From: Acidobacteriota bacterium
GTDB lineage: Bacteria; Acidobacteriota; Vicinamibacteria; Vicinamibacterales; SCN-69-37
Length of the DNA: 64,000 bases
NCBI GenBank assembly: GCA_947467605.1
Contig: CANIII010000009.1
Span: 1 to 64,000 of the forward strand
Direction of reading: 5' to 3'
Shown: positions 6,533 to 18,397 of the stretch, piece by piece
Layout of the letters: every line of letters begins with the position of its first letter
Numbering within the stretch: position 1 is the stretch's first letter
Notes under the pieces: model-generated
The model's input: the letters and a program-made list of their open reading frames with translations, nothing else
The model's database searches: none
Told to the model about the DNA's origin: nothing
Position numbers and translations under genes: made by a program

Positions 6533-7162
6533 CTAGCGAATGGCGAGGCTGCGGATCAACGAGAGCAGCATCCCGATCGCGACGGAGTTATGGCCACCTT
6601 GCGGCACGATGACATCCGCGTAGCGCTTGCTCGGTTCAACGAACTCCAGATGCATCGGCTTGACGGTGCTGAGGTACTGGTCGATGACCGAGTCGACCGT
6701 TCGGCCACGCTCGGCGACATCGCGTTGGAGCCTTCGAATAAACCGTGTGTCGTCGTCTGCGTCGACAAAGACCTTGACGTCCATCAGTGCGCGCAGCGGC
6801 GCATCGGCAAAGATCAGAATGCCTTCCACGATGATTGCGGTGCGCGCCTGCACGGGGGTGGTCGCCGAGACGCGCGCGTGTCGAGCGAAGTCGTAGACGG
6901 GGACATCGACGCGGCGGCCATCGCGCAGTGACTCGACGTGGCGCACCATGAGGTCGGTTTCGAGCGAGGCCGGGTGGTCATAGTTCAGCGCCGCGCGTTC
7001 TTCCAAACGCAGTTCGGGATGATCGCGATAGTAGCGATCGTGTTCCAGCACGCTGACGTGGTCGTCGCCGAGCGCTTCAACGATCCTGCGGACGACCGTG
7101 GTCTTGCCGGAGCCGGACCCGCCGGCGACGCCAATGATGATCGGTGCTGACGAAAACGCCAT
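6533..7162 (-). CDS. udk: Uridine kinase
   Basis: The product transfers phosphate from ATP or GTP to uridine or cytidine in pyrimidine salvage. A P-loop GGSGSGKTT lies near residue 13, followed by the family motifs HDRYYRD, YDHPASLETDLM, VPVYDFARHAR and IIVEGILIF, and by FIRRLQRDVAERGR. The start at 7162 (MAFSS) is preferred over the in-frame codon at 7210, because it lies four bases after the stop of the upstream quinoprotein gene, whereas the longer version would overlap that gene by 44 bases. Length is 209 residues, normal for the family. It is probably expressed from the quinoprotein promoter. Confidence 0.93.
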   Translation of the reverse strand: MAFSSAPIIIGVAGGSGSGKTTVVRRIVEALGDDHVSVLEHDRYYRDHPELRLEERAALNYDHPASLETDLMVRHVESLRDGRRVDVPVYDFARHARVSATTPVQARTAIIVEGILIFADAPLRALMDVKVFVDADDDTRFIRRLQRDVAERGRTVDSVIDQYLSTVKPMHLEFVEPSKRYADVIVPQGGHNSVAIGMLLSLIRSLAIR

Positions 7163-7166
7163 GTGG

Positions 7167-9152
7167 CTATTGTCCCCCGCGGCCACCGCCACCGGCGACG
7201 GGAAGTGCAAGGGTGATGAGTTCCGACGGCTGCTGCGCGTTGCGATTGGACGTCCAGAACGCGATGAATTGTCTGCCGTTGACCGAGTAGCTCATCGGCA
7301 CACTGCCGATCGCACCCGGCACTGTGATCGATGTCAGTTCCCCGCCGGTGGCCTTGTCGAGCACGTGGAGGATCGGCTGCGCGCCGCTGCCCTCGGCCAC
7401 GAGCAGGAACGTCTTGGTGACGAGAATCTCCGGACGTGTTTGCGCGCCTGTCTTCGGAATCGTCACGCCAGCCACGGCCGCGTTGTTCTTCACATCCGGC
7501 GGCGTGTCGCCGTTGGCGACCATCCATTGGTGATCGCCGGTGTTGAGATCAATGGCGGTGATGCGGCTGTACGGCGGCTTCAAAATGGGCAGGCCCCGCA
7601 CGCGCGTCGAGCCACCACCGCCACCGGAGTAGTCCATGTCGGACCGCGGATCTTTCACGAGCGCGAAGATCGAGGGGTTCGTCCAGGAACCGACGTAAAG
7701 GATGCCGGTCTCCGGGTCGAGGGCGCCGCCTTCCCAGTTCGTACCGCCAAGAGCGCCCGGCACCGTCAGCGTGCCCGTTGTGCCGTCTGGCGCATTGGCG
7801 AGCGACGGGGGAGTGAACGGCGACTTGCCCAGTCGAACCTTGGCCATTTGCTTGACGGCTTCCGCGCGCAGCTCCGGCGTGAAGTCAATCAGGTCGTCGA
7901 TCGTGACGCCCACGCGATCATAGGGCGCGGGTTTACTCGGCACGGGCTGCGTCGGAGATGTCTTCTCACCCGGCACGTCGGTCTGTTCGACCGGCACTTC
8001 ATTGATTGGCCACACCGGCGCCCCGGTCACGCGATCAAAGACAAACGCGTAGGCGTGCTTGGTCAGCTGCACCACCGCCTCGATCTTCTTCCCGCTGACG
8101 GTGATGTCCGCGAGGATCGGTTGCGTCGGGTTGTCGCGATCCCAGATGTCGTGATGCACGAGCTGTTGGTGCCAGACACGCTTGCCCGTCTTGGCATCGA
8201 GGCAGACGAGCGACGAGGCGAAGAGGTTGTTCCCCGGGCGGTGCCCGCCATAGTAATCGCCGGTGGCGTCTTCGACCGGGACGTAGATGAGGCCGCGCTT
8301 GTCGTCGCCGGCCATCGGTGCCCACGACCCGGCGTTGCCCGTGTACTCCGCCGAATTCTTTTCCCAGCTGTCGTATCCGACTTCGCCTTTCACGGGAATC
8401 GTGTTGAAGCGCCACGCGAGCTTGCCCGTACGAGTATCAAACGCCATGATGCGTGCGGGCACGTTCTTCATGGATGGCGGCCGCGTGCCCTCCTGCAGCG
8501 CGGGCGGAATCACCACGACGTTGTCGAAGACGAACGGCGGCGAGGAGTTGCCGATGGCGGCGTTGATCAGATCGACGTCGACGCCGAGATTGGCTTTGAG
8601 ATCTACGAGGCCGCTGGTGCCGAAGGTCGACACCGGCACGCCGGTCTCGGCGTCGAGCGCGGCCAGCATGAAACCTGGCGTAATCGTGAAGATGCGCGCC
8701 TTGGAGCCATCGGTCCAGTACGCCACGCCCCGGCCCGACGACCGGCGCGGAGCGAGGCGGCCACGTTCACCCTCTTCGAGATGCCAACTCCACTTGTTGG
8801 CGCCGGTGACCGCGTCCGCCGCTACCACCCAGCGCTCCGTGCCCGCCGTGAAGAACAACGTGCGGTTGATCATGATCGGCGTGCTCTCGTTCCGGTATTC
8901 CGGATTGGTGCCGTAGTTGTCTGACTTCCATCGCCACGCGATCTTTGCGGAGCCGATGTTGTCTTTCGTCAGCTGATCGAGCGGCGAATAGCGCCAGTTC
9001 GCGAGGTTGCCGCCGTAGGTCTTCCACTCCACAGACGGTCCGGTCGGCGCCGCCGGCGCGGGCCCCTGACCTCGGCCTTGTGGCGCGGCCAGTGCCGTGA
9101 GAGTGATGGCGAGCAAAGAAAGAGTAATGACGATCGGTGTACGCGCACGCAT
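7167..9152 (-). CDS. PQQ-dependent (quinoprotein) dehydrogenase-like protein
   Basis: The 661-residue product has a signal peptide (about 1-23) and then an eight-bladed propeller of the quinoprotein alcohol/glucose dehydrogenase type. Family hallmarks include NLANWRYSPLDQLTKDN, NESTPIMINRTLFFTAG, HHDIWDRDNPTQPIL and NWEGGALDPETGILYVG. No CxxCH motif is present, so it is not a quinohaemoprotein. It ends in a glycine/arginine-rich tail, with another glycine run near residue 508. It should oxidise an alcohol or sugar in the periplasm, but the substrate is not predictable. A TATCAT box sits 8 bases before the ATG and no ribosome site is visible. Confidence 0.88.
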   Translation of the reverse strand: MRARTPIVITLSLLAITLTALAAPQGRGQGPAPAAPTGPSVEWKTYGGNLANWRYSPLDQLTKDNIGSAKIAWRWKSDNYGTNPEYRNESTPIMINRTLFFTAGTERWVVAADAVTGANKWSWHLEEGERGRLAPRRSSGRGVAYWTDGSKARIFTITPGFMLAALDAETGVPVSTFGTSGLVDLKANLGVDVDLINAAIGNSSPPFVFDNVVVIPPALQEGTRPPSMKNVPARIMAFDTRTGKLAWRFNTIPVKGEVGYDSWEKNSAEYTGNAGSWAPMAGDDKRGLIYVPVEDATGDYYGGHRPGNNLFASSLVCLDAKTGKRVWHQQLVHHDIWDRDNPTQPILADITVSGKKIEAVVQLTKHAYAFVFDRVTGAPVWPINEVPVEQTDVPGEKTSPTQPVPSKPAPYDRVGVTIDDLIDFTPELRAEAVKQMAKVRLGKSPFTPPSLANAPDGTTGTLTVPGALGGTNWEGGALDPETGILYVGSWTNPSIFALVKDPRSDMDYSGGGGGSTRVRGLPILKPPYSRITAIDLNTGDHQWMVANGDTPPDVKNNAAVAGVTIPKTGAQTRPEILVTKTFLLVAEGSGAQPILHVLDKATGGELTSITVPGAIGSVPMSYSVNGRQFIAFWTSNRNAQQPSELITLALPVAGGGGRGGQ

Positions 9153-9160
9153 TGCCCAGA

Positions 9161-9166
9161 ATGATA
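9161..9166 (-). promoter_or_regulatory. -10 box of a probable leaderless promoter for the quinoprotein gene
   Basis: TATCAT on the minus strand lies 8 bases upstream of the ATG at 9152. At that spacing transcription would start at or within one or two bases of the start codon. No purine-rich ribosome site lies between them. A convincing -35 box is not visible. Confidence 0.5.
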
Positions 9167-9197
9167 CGCTTCCGACGTCATTTAGCGGAGGTCACGC

Positions 9198-10115
9198 GTG
9201 TTCGAAGGGGTCTATTCTGTGCTGCCGACGCCGTTCAAAAGCGGCGGCGATGTTGATGTCGAAAGTCTGAAGCGTGTTGTGGAGCTGATCGTGGGAGCCG
9301 GCGTCAACGGCGTCACGGCGCTCGGCGTGACGGGTGAAGTCACGCGCTTATCAGAGAAAGAGCGCGCGCTGGTCGTCGACACCGTCGTGACCCAGATCAA
9401 TGGCCGCGCCAAAGTCATTGTGGGCGCATCCGCCGATGGCGTGCGCGCCTGCATCGACTATTCCAAGGAAGCGAAGTCGCTCGGCGCTGCCGCCGTCATG
9501 GTGAGCCCGCCGCGTGCGCTCAAGCTCAACACCGAGTCGGTTGTGAGCCACTACAAGGCGCTGGCCGCCGCTGTCGGCGATCTCGAGATCGTCGTGCAGG
9601 ACTATCCGCCGATCTCCGGATTTGCGATGGAGGCCGGCCTGCTCGCGCGTATCTCGAAGGAGATTCCGACCGCACGCACGATCAAGCTCGAAGATCCGCC
9701 GACGCCGTTCAAGACCGCTCGCATTCTCGCAGCCGCTGGCGACACAAAGGTCGCGATCCTCGGTGGGCTTGGCGGCGTGTTCCTGATCGAAGAGTTGCTG
9801 GCCGGTGCGGCCGGCGTGATGACCGGATTTGCCTTCCCGGAAGTGCTCGTCAACGTGGTCTCGCGCTACAAGGCTGGCAAGATCGACGAGGCCGCCGAGG
9901 CGTTCTATCCGTTTGTGGCCCTGATGCGCTTCGAGTTTCAGGAAGGCATTGGCATGGCAATTCGCAAAGAAGTCTTCCGTCGGCGCGGTGCGCTCACGGA
10001 TGGCTCGACCCGTGCGCCAGGACCGGTGCTCGACGACAATACGCGTGCGGCCCTCGACCGTGTGCTGGGCTGGACGGCCGCAAAGAGCGGCGCTGAGTTT
10101 TTGAAGGGAATCTGA
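9198..10115 (+). CDS. DapA-family (dihydrodipicolinate synthase-like) aldolase/lyase
   Basis: The 305-residue product belongs to the N-acetylneuraminate lyase/DapA TIM-barrel superfamily. It opens with VYSVLPTPFKSGGDVD, carries the pyruvate-carboxylate loop GVTGEVTRLSEKER near residue 45, a tyrosine in VQDYPP near 135, and the Schiff-base lysine in TIKLEDPP near 162. The start is GTG at 9198, with GGAGG at 9187-9191. It is followed after one base by an SDR gene, so the pair probably acts in one catabolic route for a sugar acid or aromatic pyruvate adduct. True DapA activity is not implied, since no lysine-pathway genes are nearby. Confidence 0.88.
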   Translation: MFEGVYSVLPTPFKSGGDVDVESLKRVVELIVGAGVNGVTALGVTGEVTRLSEKERALVVDTVVTQINGRAKVIVGASADGVRACIDYSKEAKSLGAAAVMVSPPRALKLNTESVVSHYKALAAAVGDLEIVVQDYPPISGFAMEAGLLARISKEIPTARTIKLEDPPTPFKTARILAAAGDTKVAILGGLGGVFLIEELLAGAAGVMTGFAFPEVLVNVVSRYKAGKIDEAAEAFYPFVALMRFEFQEGIGMAIRKEVFRRRGALTDGSTRAPGPVLDDNTRAALDRVLGWTAAKSGAEFLKGI

Positions 10116-10116
10116 G

Positions 10117-10908
10117 ATGGAACTGGGACTGAAAGGCAAAGTGGCAATGGTGGCCGGCGCCAGCCGTGGCCTGGGCTACGCGGTCGCGCGCGGCCTCGCG
10201 GCGGAAGGCGTGCTGGTCTCCATGAGCTCACGTGAGGCCGGCAAGATCGGTGACGCGGCCAAGCGCATTGCTGCAGAAACCTACACCGAGAACTTCTCGA
10301 TGCCCGTCGACGTGCGTTCAGCGGATGCGCTCGCTGAGTGGCACGGCAAGACGGTGGAGAAGTTTGGCGGCGTCGATCTGCTCTTCGTCAACGGTGGTGG
10401 TCCACCGGCCGGTACGGTGTTGTCTTTCGACGATGCGGCATGGCAAGGCGCGTTTGAACTGCTGCTCCTGAGCGCGGTTCGCATGGTGCGTCTCGCGGTG
10501 CCTTCCATGAAAGCCCGTGGTGGTGGCGCCATCGTCGTCTCCACGTCGTCGTCGGTCAAGGAGCCCATCCCGAATCTCGCGCTGTCGAACGTGATGCGCG
10601 CATCAGTGTCGGCCATGTCAAAAACGCTGGCCAATGAGCTGGCGGCCGACAACATTCGCGTGAACCACTTGCTGCCGGGACGCATCGACACCGACCGCGT
10701 GCGCGAACTCGACACACTACGCGGCAAAGCGGCCGGCACGTCGGCCGACGACATCAAAGCCAGCTATTCAAAGGTGATTCCGCTCGGCCGCTACGGTGCG
10801 CCGGACGAATTCGGTAATGCCGCGGTGTTCTTGTTCTCCGACGCGGCGCGGTACATCACGGGGGCCTCGCTGCAAGTCGACGGCGGGTTGATCAAGAACG
10901 TCTTCTAA
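10117..10908 (+). CDS. SDR-family oxidoreductase with a substituted YxxxK motif
   Basis: The 263-residue product has the Rossmann glycine motif GASRGLG near residue 12 and the NxGG element (NGGGPPAG), and it ends in the C-terminal DGG motif common to SDRs. Where the catalytic YxxxK should stand it has S157-N-V-M-R161, so both tyrosine and lysine are replaced. A subfamily with LSNxxR at this position is widespread and is usually annotated as 3-oxoacyl-ACP reductase-like. Cofactor binding is likely, while classical SDR catalysis is not. It starts one base after the aldolase stop and is probably co-transcribed with it. Confidence 0.85.
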   Translation: MELGLKGKVAMVAGASRGLGYAVARGLAAEGVLVSMSSREAGKIGDAAKRIAAETYTENFSMPVDVRSADALAEWHGKTVEKFGGVDLLFVNGGGPPAGTVLSFDDAAWQGAFELLLLSAVRMVRLAVPSMKARGGGAIVVSTSSSVKEPIPNLALSNVMRASVSAMSKTLANELAADNIRVNHLLPGRIDTDRVRELDTLRGKAAGTSADDIKASYSKVIPLGRYGAPDEFGNAAVFLFSDAARYITGASLQVDGGLIKNVF

Positions 10909-11005
10909 ATTCCGCTTCGGGTCGTTTACGCTCGATCGACGGGCGTATCAGCTGTCTGCCGGCGGCGCAGCCATTCCTCTGTCTCCGCGCGCCATTGATC
11001 TGCTG

Positions 11006-12280
11006 TTGCTCATGGTCATGCAGCCCGGCCTGCTGTTTACGAAGGACGAGATCTTCAACACGTTGTGGCCGGATGTCACCGTCACCGACAACGCGCTGAC
11101 GCAGGTCATCTCGGAATTGCGGCAGGCGCTCGGCGACAAGCCGAACGCCCCCATGTTCATTGAGACGGTGCCACGACGCGGATACCGCTGGCTGGCACCC
11201 GTGGAAGTGAGCGACCCGGTGGCCACTGGCGTCGCGAGTGACGCTGGCGTCGAGCTTCAGGCACAGACCGCTCAAGCCGCGCAGCTGCAGAGCGCCATCG
11301 TCACCGCGCTGATGGCCGGGCTGAAAGTGACCATTACGGCGGCGCCGTCGCAGCCCACAGGCTCACGCGAGACGCCGAGCCTTGAGGCGTATCGCCTGGC
11401 GACCGACGGGCGGATGAAGCTCGAGACGCTCGATCCCAAAGCCATTCAGGAGGCCGTCGTCGACTTCACAAAGGCGATTGCGCTTGATCCAACGTATGCA
11501 CCTGCGCATATTGGTCTCGCGCATGCGCACTTCTGGTTGTATCAAGCCACGCGCGTGCGCAGCCGTCCGGAGAAAGCCGAGCTGGATGCGGCTATCGCGC
11601 ACGCCGAGCGCGCTGTGGCGCTCGACCCCAGTCAGGCAGAGGCGCACGCGGCGCTCGCATTTTTCCTCGCGATTACACCGCGCAACGCCGAAGCGCTCAC
11701 GCACGGCCGTCTGGCTGTGTCGATGGAGCCCGGCAACTGGCGGCATCAGTTCCAGCTGGGCATCGCGGCGTGGGGGAGTGAGCGACTGAAGTGTCTGGCG
11801 GTGGTGATGGCGCAGTATCCGGCGCTGACGCACGCCCACTTTGCGGCCGCTTACGTGCATATCGCGCGCGGCGATCTGGATCAGGCCGATGCGGTTCTGG
11901 CAATCGGGTTGGAAACGCAGCGCAAGACGCCGTCAGATCGGCTGCCCGGCCGCGGCCTGCATTGGCTACGTGGATTGATCGCTCTCCGTCGCGATCAGCT
12001 CGACGAGGCGCACCAGCATCTGGCAGCGGAGCTCAGTGCCGGGGGCGATGATGTGTTCGCGGATGAGTTTACGGTTGATGCGCTGATGGGGTTGGGATTT
12101 GCGCACTTGGCGACGAAGAAGCCTGCCGAGGCCGTGAAGTGTTTTGAACGGGCCGTTGAGCGAGTGCCGGATCACGCGCGTGCGTGGCTGGGGCTGGGCA
12201 AGGCGCGGCTTGCGGCCGGCGACGAGCCCGGCGCGATCGAGGCGCGTGAGCGCGGTGTTCGCGGCGAGCATGACCTTTAA
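11006..12280 (+). CDS. Winged-helix/TPR regulator, broken at both ends
   Basis: The coordinates give the longest frame with a usable start (TTG at 11006, ATG at 11012). This start cuts into an OmpR/CadC-type winged-helix domain: in-frame sequence from 10907 encodes its missing first part (FRFGSFTLDRRAYQL...PLSPRAIDLL), but no ATG, GTG or TTG exists there before the in-frame stop at 10889. The rest of the DNA-binding domain is intact (KDEIFNTLWPDVTVTDNALTQVISELRQALGD, then ETVPRRGYRW). It is followed by TPR repeats. The frame ends in TAA at 12278-12280, but matching sequence continues in frame to 12499. Either a pseudogene, a sequencing error, or unusual initiation could explain this. Confidence 0.7.
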   Translation: MLMVMQPGLLFTKDEIFNTLWPDVTVTDNALTQVISELRQALGDKPNAPMFIETVPRRGYRWLAPVEVSDPVATGVASDAGVELQAQTAQAAQLQSAIVTALMAGLKVTITAAPSQPTGSRETPSLEAYRLATDGRMKLETLDPKAIQEAVVDFTKAIALDPTYAPAHIGLAHAHFWLYQATRVRSRPEKAELDAAIAHAERAVALDPSQAEAHAALAFFLAITPRNAEALTHGRLAVSMEPGNWRHQFQLGIAAWGSERLKCLAVVMAQYPALTHAHFAAAYVHIARGDLDQADAVLAIGLETQRKTPSDRLPGRGLHWLRGLIALRRDQLDEAHQHLAAELSAGGDDVFADEFTVDALMGLGFAHLATKKPAEAVKCFERAVERVPDHARAWLGLGKARLAAGDEPGAIEARERGVRGEHDL

Positions 12281-12499
12281 GTGTTTGGTCGCGCACCGGA
12301 AGCGACCATCGCTCGCGCGATGGCATTCTTTCTTGACGGCGACATCAACGACGCCTGCGCCGTCCTGACTAAATTCCTCACAGAGGCGCCGACGGGGATG
12401 TGGGCGGCGACGCTGCCCGTGGAGCCCTGGATGCGTCCCTTTCTTGATGACAAACGCGTGATCGCCGTGCTGTCGCAACTGGCGCAGCGCGCCAAGTAA
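12281..12499 (+). pseudogene. In-frame continuation of the winged-helix/TPR gene after a stop codon
   Basis: This 72-codon stretch follows the TAA at 12278-12280 in the same frame. It reads as one more TPR helix pair (ATIARAMAFFLDGDINDACAVLTKFL) and then the typical end of such regulators (LPVEPWMRPFL...VIAVLSQLAQRAK). It therefore looks like the original C-terminus cut off by a nonsense codon. A GTG at 12281 could in principle restart translation, but a separate small protein is less likely. Confidence 0.6.
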
Positions 12500-12512
12500 C
12501 CACGATCTGTAT

Positions 12513-12785
12513 CTAATTCTGGGGTGTGTCGTCCGCGGAGTCTTCGACTTCGCGTTCGATGTCGATCGTGCACTCAGTAATCAGCGCGGCCAGTGCGCCG
12601 ACTGCGGCCAACATCGGCGCGAACATCGCGCCGACGACGCCGACCGTGAGCGGGAACTCGGCGATGGTCTTCTCGCCCTGACGAATGCGAATGCGCCGCA
12701 CGTTGCCGGCCTCGATGAGCTTCTGCACGGCATCGGCGAGCTGGTTGCCGGTGACTTGAATTGTTTCCCACACAGTGCGCGCCAT
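12513..12785 (-). CDS. DUF4342-family small protein
   Basis: The 90-residue product matches the DUF4342 pattern: an N-terminal helix (WETIQVTGNQLADAVQKLIEAGNVRRIRI), a strand (TIAEFPLTVGV), and a hydrophobic glycine/alanine-rich helix (VGAMFAPMLAAVGALAALITECTIDIER) that may insert in or lie on the membrane. The function of this family is not known. It is transcribed alone, divergent from the secreted-protein gene downstream. Confidence 0.85.
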   Translation of the reverse strand: MARTVWETIQVTGNQLADAVQKLIEAGNVRRIRIRQGEKTIAEFPLTVGVVGAMFAPMLAAVGALAALITECTIDIEREVEDSADDTPQN

Positions 12786-12904
12786 CGTGATCGCCTCTAC
12801 ACACCCTTACGGCATTCATCGGGAAGGGTTCGCGTATTTTCGTCAGTGCCCGGTCGAATCGGTCACGACTTGTTGTAGCCTGTCGCCAGCCAGTGGGGGC
12901 AGAG

Positions 12905-14575
12905 ATGTATTTCTACAGAAGATTCGCCGGGCGCGTGTGCGCCTGTGGCGTGTCGATCGCGATGGCGGTGGCCGCACCGTTGGCTCAAGTGCCTCGCGAC
13001 CGTCCGACGCCGCCGCCGGCTGCGCCGGCAGGAACCTGCTCGCTCGCCGGGCGCATGGTGATCGCGACGGCCTCGGGTGTCGCGCCGGTGCGGCGCGCGC
13101 GCGTGGTGCTCGAGTCGAGCGCACTGAAACAGCCGATGACGACCGAGACCGACAGCGAGGGGCGCTATCGATTCTCAGCGCTGCCGGCCGGGCCGTATCG
13201 AGCGCATGGCGAGAAGGCGGGGTTTGTGGCGAAATTGGCAGACCCGCGTCGCGTCTTCGAGGCCCCAACGCCGATCGATCTCAGGGCAGGGCAGTCGGCA
13301 ACCGCTGACTTCGTCATGCAGGCGGGGGCCGCACTCGAAGGCCGTCTCATAAAGGAGAATGGCGACCCGGCGGCAAACATCGTCGTGTCAGCCGTGCGTT
13401 TGGCGTATGACGTGACCGGCCGCAAACCGGTGGCGGTGCAACAGGCGCGCACGGACGATCTCGGTCGCTTCCGTGTGCACACGCTGCCACCGGGTGACTA
13501 CTACGTCGATGCGGCGCCCGATCCGCTGGATGCTGCGCGGATGCCACCGCAAGGGCCACGGCCATCGGTCTTGTCGCGCACGTACTACCCGGGGTCTGCG
13601 CGCTTCGACGATGCCCGCATCGTGAGCGTCACCGTCGGGCAGACGTTGTCGAATCTCGACTTCTCGGTCTCGAGTGCTTCCGTGGCGAGGCTCGGCGCTC
13701 GCCTGGCGACTGCCGCCGGGCAACCAGCAAATGACGGCGGGTTTCGTGTGCAGCGCGTAGGCGGTCCGACAGGTGAAGTGCGTGGCAGTGCGTCGCCTGG
13801 CGGCAATCAGGTGTCGTATGCGGCCGTGCCCGCTGGCGACTATTGGCTGATGGGCGTGTGGCGGTCGGCGCCTGGTGCCGACGCGGAGTTTGGCATCACG
13901 CGAATCACCGTCGCCGGCGAAGACCAGCTCAACCTCTCGGTCGTGACGGCGAAGGCGCCCTCGTTGACCGGACGTGTCGAAGGTGTCGCGATTCCGCCGG
14001 GCTTGCAGGTCGTGGCGTACGAGACCGCGTACGAATGGCCGGCGATTGTCGGCGATCAGCCGTGGAAGTGGACCGCGCCGGTCGCCGCGGATGGCACCTT
14101 CACATTCAGCGCGCTCCCGGGACCGCGCCTACTGCGATTGACCGGTGTGGCCAACGCGCCCACCATCAGTCGCATCGTCGCCGGTGATGTGGACGTGACG
14201 GATGTGCCGACCGAGATCAAACCCGGCGAGTCGATGGCGGTGCGCATCGTCGCCGCGCCGAATACCGCAACGCTCAGTGGCTCGGTCAAGGATTCCACTG
14301 GCGTCGGCATTGAAAAGGCGCGCGTGGTGGTGTTCAGCGATGACGAGCGCACATGGGGACCGCGATCGCGCATGGTCAAGGCCGTGGAGTCGAACGCGAC
14401 GGGGCAGTATGAAGTGCGTGGGCTGTTGCCCGGTACGTATTGGGTTATCGCGCTCGACTATTTGGACGAGAACGCCTGGAACGACGCGACGGTGTTGGCG
14501 AAACTCAAGACCGGCGCGATTTCTCTGACAACGGCGGGTGGTGCGGCGACGTTGCCGCTGGTGGTGAAACGATGA
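12905..14575 (+). CDS. Secreted carboxypeptidase-regulatory-like domain protein (first of two)
   Basis: The 556-residue product has a signal peptide (about 1-28, ending APLAQ) and consists of repeated beta-sandwich units of the carboxypeptidase-regulatory/CNA-B type. These show ETDSEGRYRFSALPAGPYRAH near residue 90, TDDLGRFRVHTLPPGDYYVDA near 190 and SNATGQYEVRGLLPGTYWVIA near the end. No catalytic domain is visible, so a binding or structural role at the cell surface is likely. The ATG at 12905 is preferred over the GTG at 12893 because it places the signal peptide at the N-terminus and follows a purine-rich GGGGGCAGAG. It overlaps the next paralogue as ATGA. Confidence 0.82.
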   Translation: MYFYRRFAGRVCACGVSIAMAVAAPLAQVPRDRPTPPPAAPAGTCSLAGRMVIATASGVAPVRRARVVLESSALKQPMTTETDSEGRYRFSALPAGPYRAHGEKAGFVAKLADPRRVFEAPTPIDLRAGQSATADFVMQAGAALEGRLIKENGDPAANIVVSAVRLAYDVTGRKPVAVQQARTDDLGRFRVHTLPPGDYYVDAAPDPLDAARMPPQGPRPSVLSRTYYPGSARFDDARIVSVTVGQTLSNLDFSVSSASVARLGARLATAAGQPANDGGFRVQRVGGPTGEVRGSASPGGNQVSYAAVPAGDYWLMGVWRSAPGADAEFGITRITVAGEDQLNLSVVTAKAPSLTGRVEGVAIPPGLQVVAYETAYEWPAIVGDQPWKWTAPVAADGTFTFSALPGPRLLRLTGVANAPTISRIVAGDVDVTDVPTEIKPGESMAVRIVAAPNTATLSGSVKDSTGVGIEKARVVVFSDDERTWGPRSRMVKAVESNATGQYEVRGLLPGTYWVIALDYLDENAWNDATVLAKLKTGAISLTTAGGAATLPLVVKR

Positions 14576-18320: not shown

Positions 18321-18397
18321 GGTGTGACCGGCCAAATTCTTGCGAGCCCACGCCGATGATATTGTCCGCCTGCGGCGATGCCGCATGGAGGCTCGGA

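Follow-up and report, generated by a model that had tools for sequence, protein, structure and literature searches.

CadC/ToxR-like membrane regulators are one-component regulators with an N-terminal winged helix of the OmpR/PhoB type, and HilA consists of a winged helix followed by TPR. The locus described here lies in a window of 64,000 nucleotides, the whole stretch of DNA that was analysed, from an Acidobacteriota bacterium (contig CANIII010000009.1). Its protein shares the winged helix with the CadC/ToxR-like regulators but differs from them in having no clear membrane segment and a C-terminal part made of TPR repeats: no transmembrane helix was found in residues 1-462, where the 19-residue hydropathy maximum is 1.53 and falls within the winged helix. 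The winged-helix/TPR identity proposed in an initial annotation, made from the sequence alone, is borne out by Pfam, in which the frame matches Trans_reg_C at 6.1e-16 (58.7 bits against a curated cut-off of 26.2) together with TPR families, and by the DNA-binding domain of CadC (5ju7), the best solved match, at 7.6e-18 over residues 8-104. The resemblance to HilA/EilA-like regulators (NCBIfam NF009037) is weak, with 59 bits, far under the curated cut-off of 589 for the HilA equivalog, and its best stretch is the winged helix. The 72-aa tail alone matched no Pfam family at E<=0.001. Because of the Trans_reg_C/TPR and CadC matches, and of those to genome G042 and to the tail in genome G001, the regulator frame is, as judged by homology, real coding sequence and not a chance frame. 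We assign a probability of about 0.73 to the reading that it is a recently inactivated gene, that is, a pseudogene, for a CadC-like winged-helix/TPR transcription regulator.

A regulator frame without a standard start and with an internal TAA

The features of the locus, and of the SDR-family gene that overlaps its beginning, are as follows.

10117..10908, + strand: intact gene for an SDR-family oxidoreductase, 263 aa (Pfam adh_short_C2, 4.5e-49)
10889..10891, + strand: in-frame TGA upstream of the regulator frame (from the sequence)
10892..11005, + strand: first 38 regulator codons, without ATG, GTG or TTG, forming the start of the winged helix (CadC alignment from residue 8)
10898..10900, + strand: ACG, the sole codon of the first six that is one base off a standard start; inside the SDR gene
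10967..11188, + strand: Trans_reg_C (OmpR/PhoB-type winged helix) match, residues 26-99 (Pfam)
11006..12280, + strand: longest ORF with a standard start (TTG; ATG at 11012), 424 aa, with a cut winged helix and TPR repeats
12278..12280, + strand: in-frame TAA; G001 has an alanine codon there, with the alignment ungapped on both sides
12281..12499, + strand: former C-terminal tail, 72 codons in the same frame, GTG first; matches in G001, G042, G063 and G011

Read directly from the sequence, the frame spans 10892-12499 on the plus strand and is open over 535 codons apart from the TAA, with coding-like base composition on both sides of that codon. The upstream TGA is followed by TCA AGA ACG TCT TCT AAA TTC CGC TTC, and no ATG, GTG or TTG occurs in the frame before TTG 11006, which is followed by ATG 11012 and ATG 11018; these lie inside the DNA-binding domain, so that no standard start yields a complete winged helix. 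The missing start reported in the initial annotation is thus confirmed, with the addition that the non-standard candidates include ATT 10973 and ATT 10994 besides ACG 10898 and several CTG codons. Its further observations, that the same frame continues beyond the TAA (from GTG 12281 to the stop at 12497-12499) and that these 72 codons are the tail of the same protein, also hold, the latter through an ungapped match, 45.8% identical, to the C-terminus of the G001 orthologue. A mechanical ORF list renders the locus as two ORFs, 11006-12280 (424 aa) and 12281-12499 (72 aa).

The orthologue of G001

The orthologue comparison that the initial annotation had proposed could be made with G001, a genome of the same genus, which is open in the same place over the C-terminal 216 codons of a positional orthologue; these lie at a contig end, and the start of the gene falls beyond the contig. 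From residue 320 of the window's frame to its end, across the position of the TAA, the two sequences align without gaps, with no indel in the 216 shared codons, and identity is 55.9% before the TAA and falls to the lower value given above after it. Three neighbour genes are 51.5, 59.7 and 69.1% identical between the window and G001, so the regulator is close to its surroundings in this respect, the tail somewhat lower, and the third codon positions change most. The order of genes from the regulator to tRNA-Leu and the gene at 18356 is common to the two genomes, with two carboxypeptidase-regulatory-like genes, a YaeQ gene and a metallo-beta-lactamase-fold gene preceding the tRNA-Leu. Directly after the regulator, the window has a DUF4342 gene (12513-12785, - strand), and G001 has at that place a 214-aa ORF without a Pfam match. 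In G002, the second genome of the genus, no match better than 5.2e-15 was found.

The open frame, the lack of indels relative to G001, the coding-like composition and the neighbour-like divergence suggest that the regulator was under selection until recently, and it could still be used. Given the absence of indels and the neighbour-like divergence, either the lesions arose recently or the product remains in use in part. At conserved family sites the regulator deviates at 19 of 118, the third highest value in a set of 25 (24 proteins kept of the 31 loci offered, plus the regulator); L060 and L032 deviate more, and the raised deviation may point to relaxed selection or reflect distance only.

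Separately, positions 11288-11344 of the window correspond in the alignment to the last part of a middle region, about 110 aa long, in L025 (G011), the remainder of which is nearly absent here. This suggests an older in-frame loss of that region, in which Pfam names no domain.

Relatives and their start codons

The genome that contains the window (G000) has 3.66 Mb in 32 contigs; apart from the regulator itself, its strongest match to this protein is 36% identical over about 100 residues. A search across the order, in which 10 candidates were scored per genome, gave matches at E<=1e-40 in 30 of 162 genomes (G000 and 29 others), and the matched places outside G000 number 30, none of which has a stop within the match. 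The best of these matches is in G042, with 48% identity over residues 7-439 and also 44% over residues 8-459; the tail (12281-12499) is matched in G042 and G063, and in G011 over 34 residues. A first scan of named genomes, covering 66 stretches, yielded no relative. In a second scan, made with alignment, 428 of 452 stretches encoded one; the best 80 were kept, and the first 16 of these (L117-L132) are labelled Acidobacteria, Vicinamibacteria or Vicinamibacterales, labels that probably place G000 in the order Vicinamibacterales. The best named-genome matches, L118 (JAHFUL010000036), L117 (JACOUA010000335), L119 and L120, are 44-49% identical in their best segments and match over long stretches. 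Unlike the regulator of the window, both L117 and the G042 copy begin at a standard start and stay open as far as the C-terminus.

A pattern search identified 22 distinct relatives among ORFs of at least 250 codons (it missed L035, which has an ATG, and contig ends truncate L053 and L130). In 21 of the 22, a standard start lies no more than 20 codons from the first strand, with the nearest starts 1-8 codons before it. The exception, L055 (G077), has GCG where its sisters L056-L058 have GTG, and one has to go 34 codons upstream to reach a standard start, an ATG. The promoter-like box of L055 is kept despite this substitution. In a wider and looser set, 81 of 83 winged-helix ORFs contain one or more standard starts in the interval 72-105 codons before the wing, although some of the codons counted there lie inside the domain; the exceptions are L055 and L147, the latter without any standard start and opening with CTG directly behind a stop. 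Measured in this way, the first start of the regulator frame in the window, TTG 11006, is 56 codons before the wing. A missing start thus appears to be rare among relatives, in sets that were chosen for being open: the start, conserved-site and wide-set tests took only ORFs open over 250, 430 and 150 codons, respectively, and would miss broken relatives.

The junction with the SDR gene

The regulator frame opens with 10892-10908, a stretch that at the same time closes the SDR gene. The SDR codons begin one base earlier than those of the regulator, and the last SDR codons and stop overlap the beginning of the regulator frame by 17 bases. Four orthologues of the SDR gene from the same family (G007, G008, G012 and G013) are 74-79% identical to it, and all four stop at the same codon; no regulator match was found in the 6-11 kb around each. 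In G000, a 301-base DNA query containing the 5' end of the regulator matched itself only. A plasmid collection gave 28 records, of which the 20 listed matched within the SDR part only.

In 15 of the 22 relatives a TANNNT hexamer is located 10-40 nt before the first strand, compared with a mean of 3.9 and a maximum of 10 in 1000 mononucleotide shuffles; in 13 of those 15 it reads TAGAAT or TACAAT, and it usually lies 6-11 nt before the start. A leaderless arrangement has been described in bacteria, including Acidobacteria (PMC3160421), and the placement of TANNNT in the relatives is similar. In the window, a single TANNNT falls within 45 nt of the first strand, 4 nt ahead of it, and SDR codons occupy the usual place. 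Since SDR codons fill that place, the join of the two genes lacks both a standard start and the promoter-like box.

TANNNT also peaks 12-15 nt before ATG or GTG near ORF starts in a sample of G000 (L077-L096 plus the window; 304 ORFs), with counts of 16, 10, 11 and 11 against 0-5 at other distances, which suggests that leaderless genes are common in this genome. No clear peak was seen in a sample of G004 (235 ORFs), for which the ORF set looked poor.

A single base separates ACG 10898 from ATG, and in the SDR gene this base is silent. The chance of at least one codon among six being one base from a standard start is about 0.89; such a codon is thus expected, and we rejected the ACG as a proven ancestral ATG and regard it as weak evidence for one.

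A probable recent pseudogene and its alternatives

The coding region is disrupted in comparison with open orthologues, lacking a start and containing a TAA where relatives are open, as expected of a pseudogene. At the 5' end, a deletion or rearrangement may have joined the end of the SDR gene to the first regulator codons, with loss of the start and the promoter-like box; alternatively, a point change may have struck an ATG overlapping the SDR end. TAA 12278-12280 is a separate nonsense codon and cuts off the last 72 codons. Under standard rules, the locus would then make at most a protein from TTG 11006 or ATG 11012. Judged by the fold of CadC and PhoB, such a protein would be missing the strands at the N-terminus as well as part of the first helix, and DNA binding is therefore unlikely. 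The initial annotation had left open a choice between a recent pseudogene, an assembly error, and non-canonical initiation with readthrough. Open relatives, the G001 orthologue in place and the presence of two lesions favour the first; the last gained no positive support, and the assembly error is made unlikely by the TAA being the only internal stop in 40 homologous stretches and by the lack of a confirmed frameshift, with a second gene containing an internal TGA counting against that assessment.

An error of assembly or consensus, or strain mixing within a metagenome bin, is the strongest of the competing explanations for one or both lesions and is nevertheless improbable. Open relatives exist, and each lesion can be a single-base change; set against this, two independent errors in one gene would be needed, and SDR codons replacing a promoter region are unlike a base-calling error. 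In a homology test whose queries were 1,436 ORFs of the G004 sample plus eight other loci (some loci having been fetched as regulator matches), 40 stretches of G000 were aligned, comprising 14,948 aa within 464 kb, and two contained stops, of which TAA 12278-12280 was the sole one inside a gene. The second stop (window 6542-7312, - strand) was dismissed as lying upstream of a gene, because the ORF there is open from TTG 7210 and matches uridine kinase from its residue 21. No frameshift was confirmed, the one frameshift-like pair in the sample being a tRNA region, and the small reverse control gave no stops in 23 stretches (8,237 aa). The test covered about a tenth of the 464-kb sample and missed the second disrupted gene, located in the sampled stretch L084, and for these reasons we do not place the probability of an error lower. 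A codon-usage scan for internal stops returned 15 candidates in the 464 kb of G000, TAA 12278-12280 not among them, and 37 in the G004 control, where the model looked poor.

Across 14 genomes of the family, 121 of 122 Trans_reg_C matches have no internal stop, and the exception is also in G000. This exception, a winged-helix gene with an FHA domain (L002 from 1501; G000:C4 35963), carries a TGA (1672-1674) at the place of the tryptophan in the LWP motif of relatives. Of the 12 winged-helix genes of G000, two are thus disrupted, which may point to decay of winged-helix genes in this lineage or to a few sequence errors.

Slightly less probable again, and doubtful in our view, is a functional shortened product of 422-424 aa, running from TTG 11006 or ATG 11012 to the TAA and acting via its TPR repeats without normal DNA binding. 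It would correspond to the longest ORF with a standard start, and 96 of the 118 conserved family columns fall between residues 39 and 462; against it, such a product would begin inside the winged helix, whereas in 21 of 22 relatives a standard start precedes the first strand. A search of 8900-12950 for a sigma-70-like site gave none, which carries little weight, as shuffles give only 0.6.

It is very improbable that a whole or two-piece regulator is produced by unusual translation, in which ribosomes ending the SDR gene would start again at ACG 10898 (or shift into the frame by +1) and would then read through, or reinitiate, at the TAA GTG of 12278-12283. The frame is open and conserved at both ends, the ACG is 4 codons before the first strand and so within the range of the relatives' nearest starts, GGCGGG ends 10 bases before it, a GTG directly follows the TAA, and L117 provides a precedent in which the GTG start of the regulator overlaps the upstream stop by 4 nt. 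Weighing against this are the high chance frequency of a near-start codon, the lack of a full Shine-Dalgarno match by eye, the standard starts of the relatives, the sense codon of G001 at the position of the TAA and the need for two rare events. No recoding signal was recognised by eye at the locus, nor is one conserved in the relatives, judging by those starts and that sense codon. We consider still more far-fetched the specific case of a two-piece regulator tied to SDR translation, with an ACG or coupled start at the SDR stop and GTG reinitiation after the TAA. A +1 frameshift from the SDR gene was rejected: the offset fits, but TTC TAA A presumably offers no good re-pairing for tRNA-Phe, and we assume that it is not slippery, having recognised no such sequence there. 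A changed genetic code was set aside, as the SDR gene and the listed neighbour genes use ordinary starts and stops.

Implications

As a decayed gene, the regulator would be ordinary. The mechanical ORF list shows two normal-looking ORFs where relatives have one regulator. If, instead, the locus were translated whole, it would be a natural case of non-standard initiation and termination in a poorly studied phylum.
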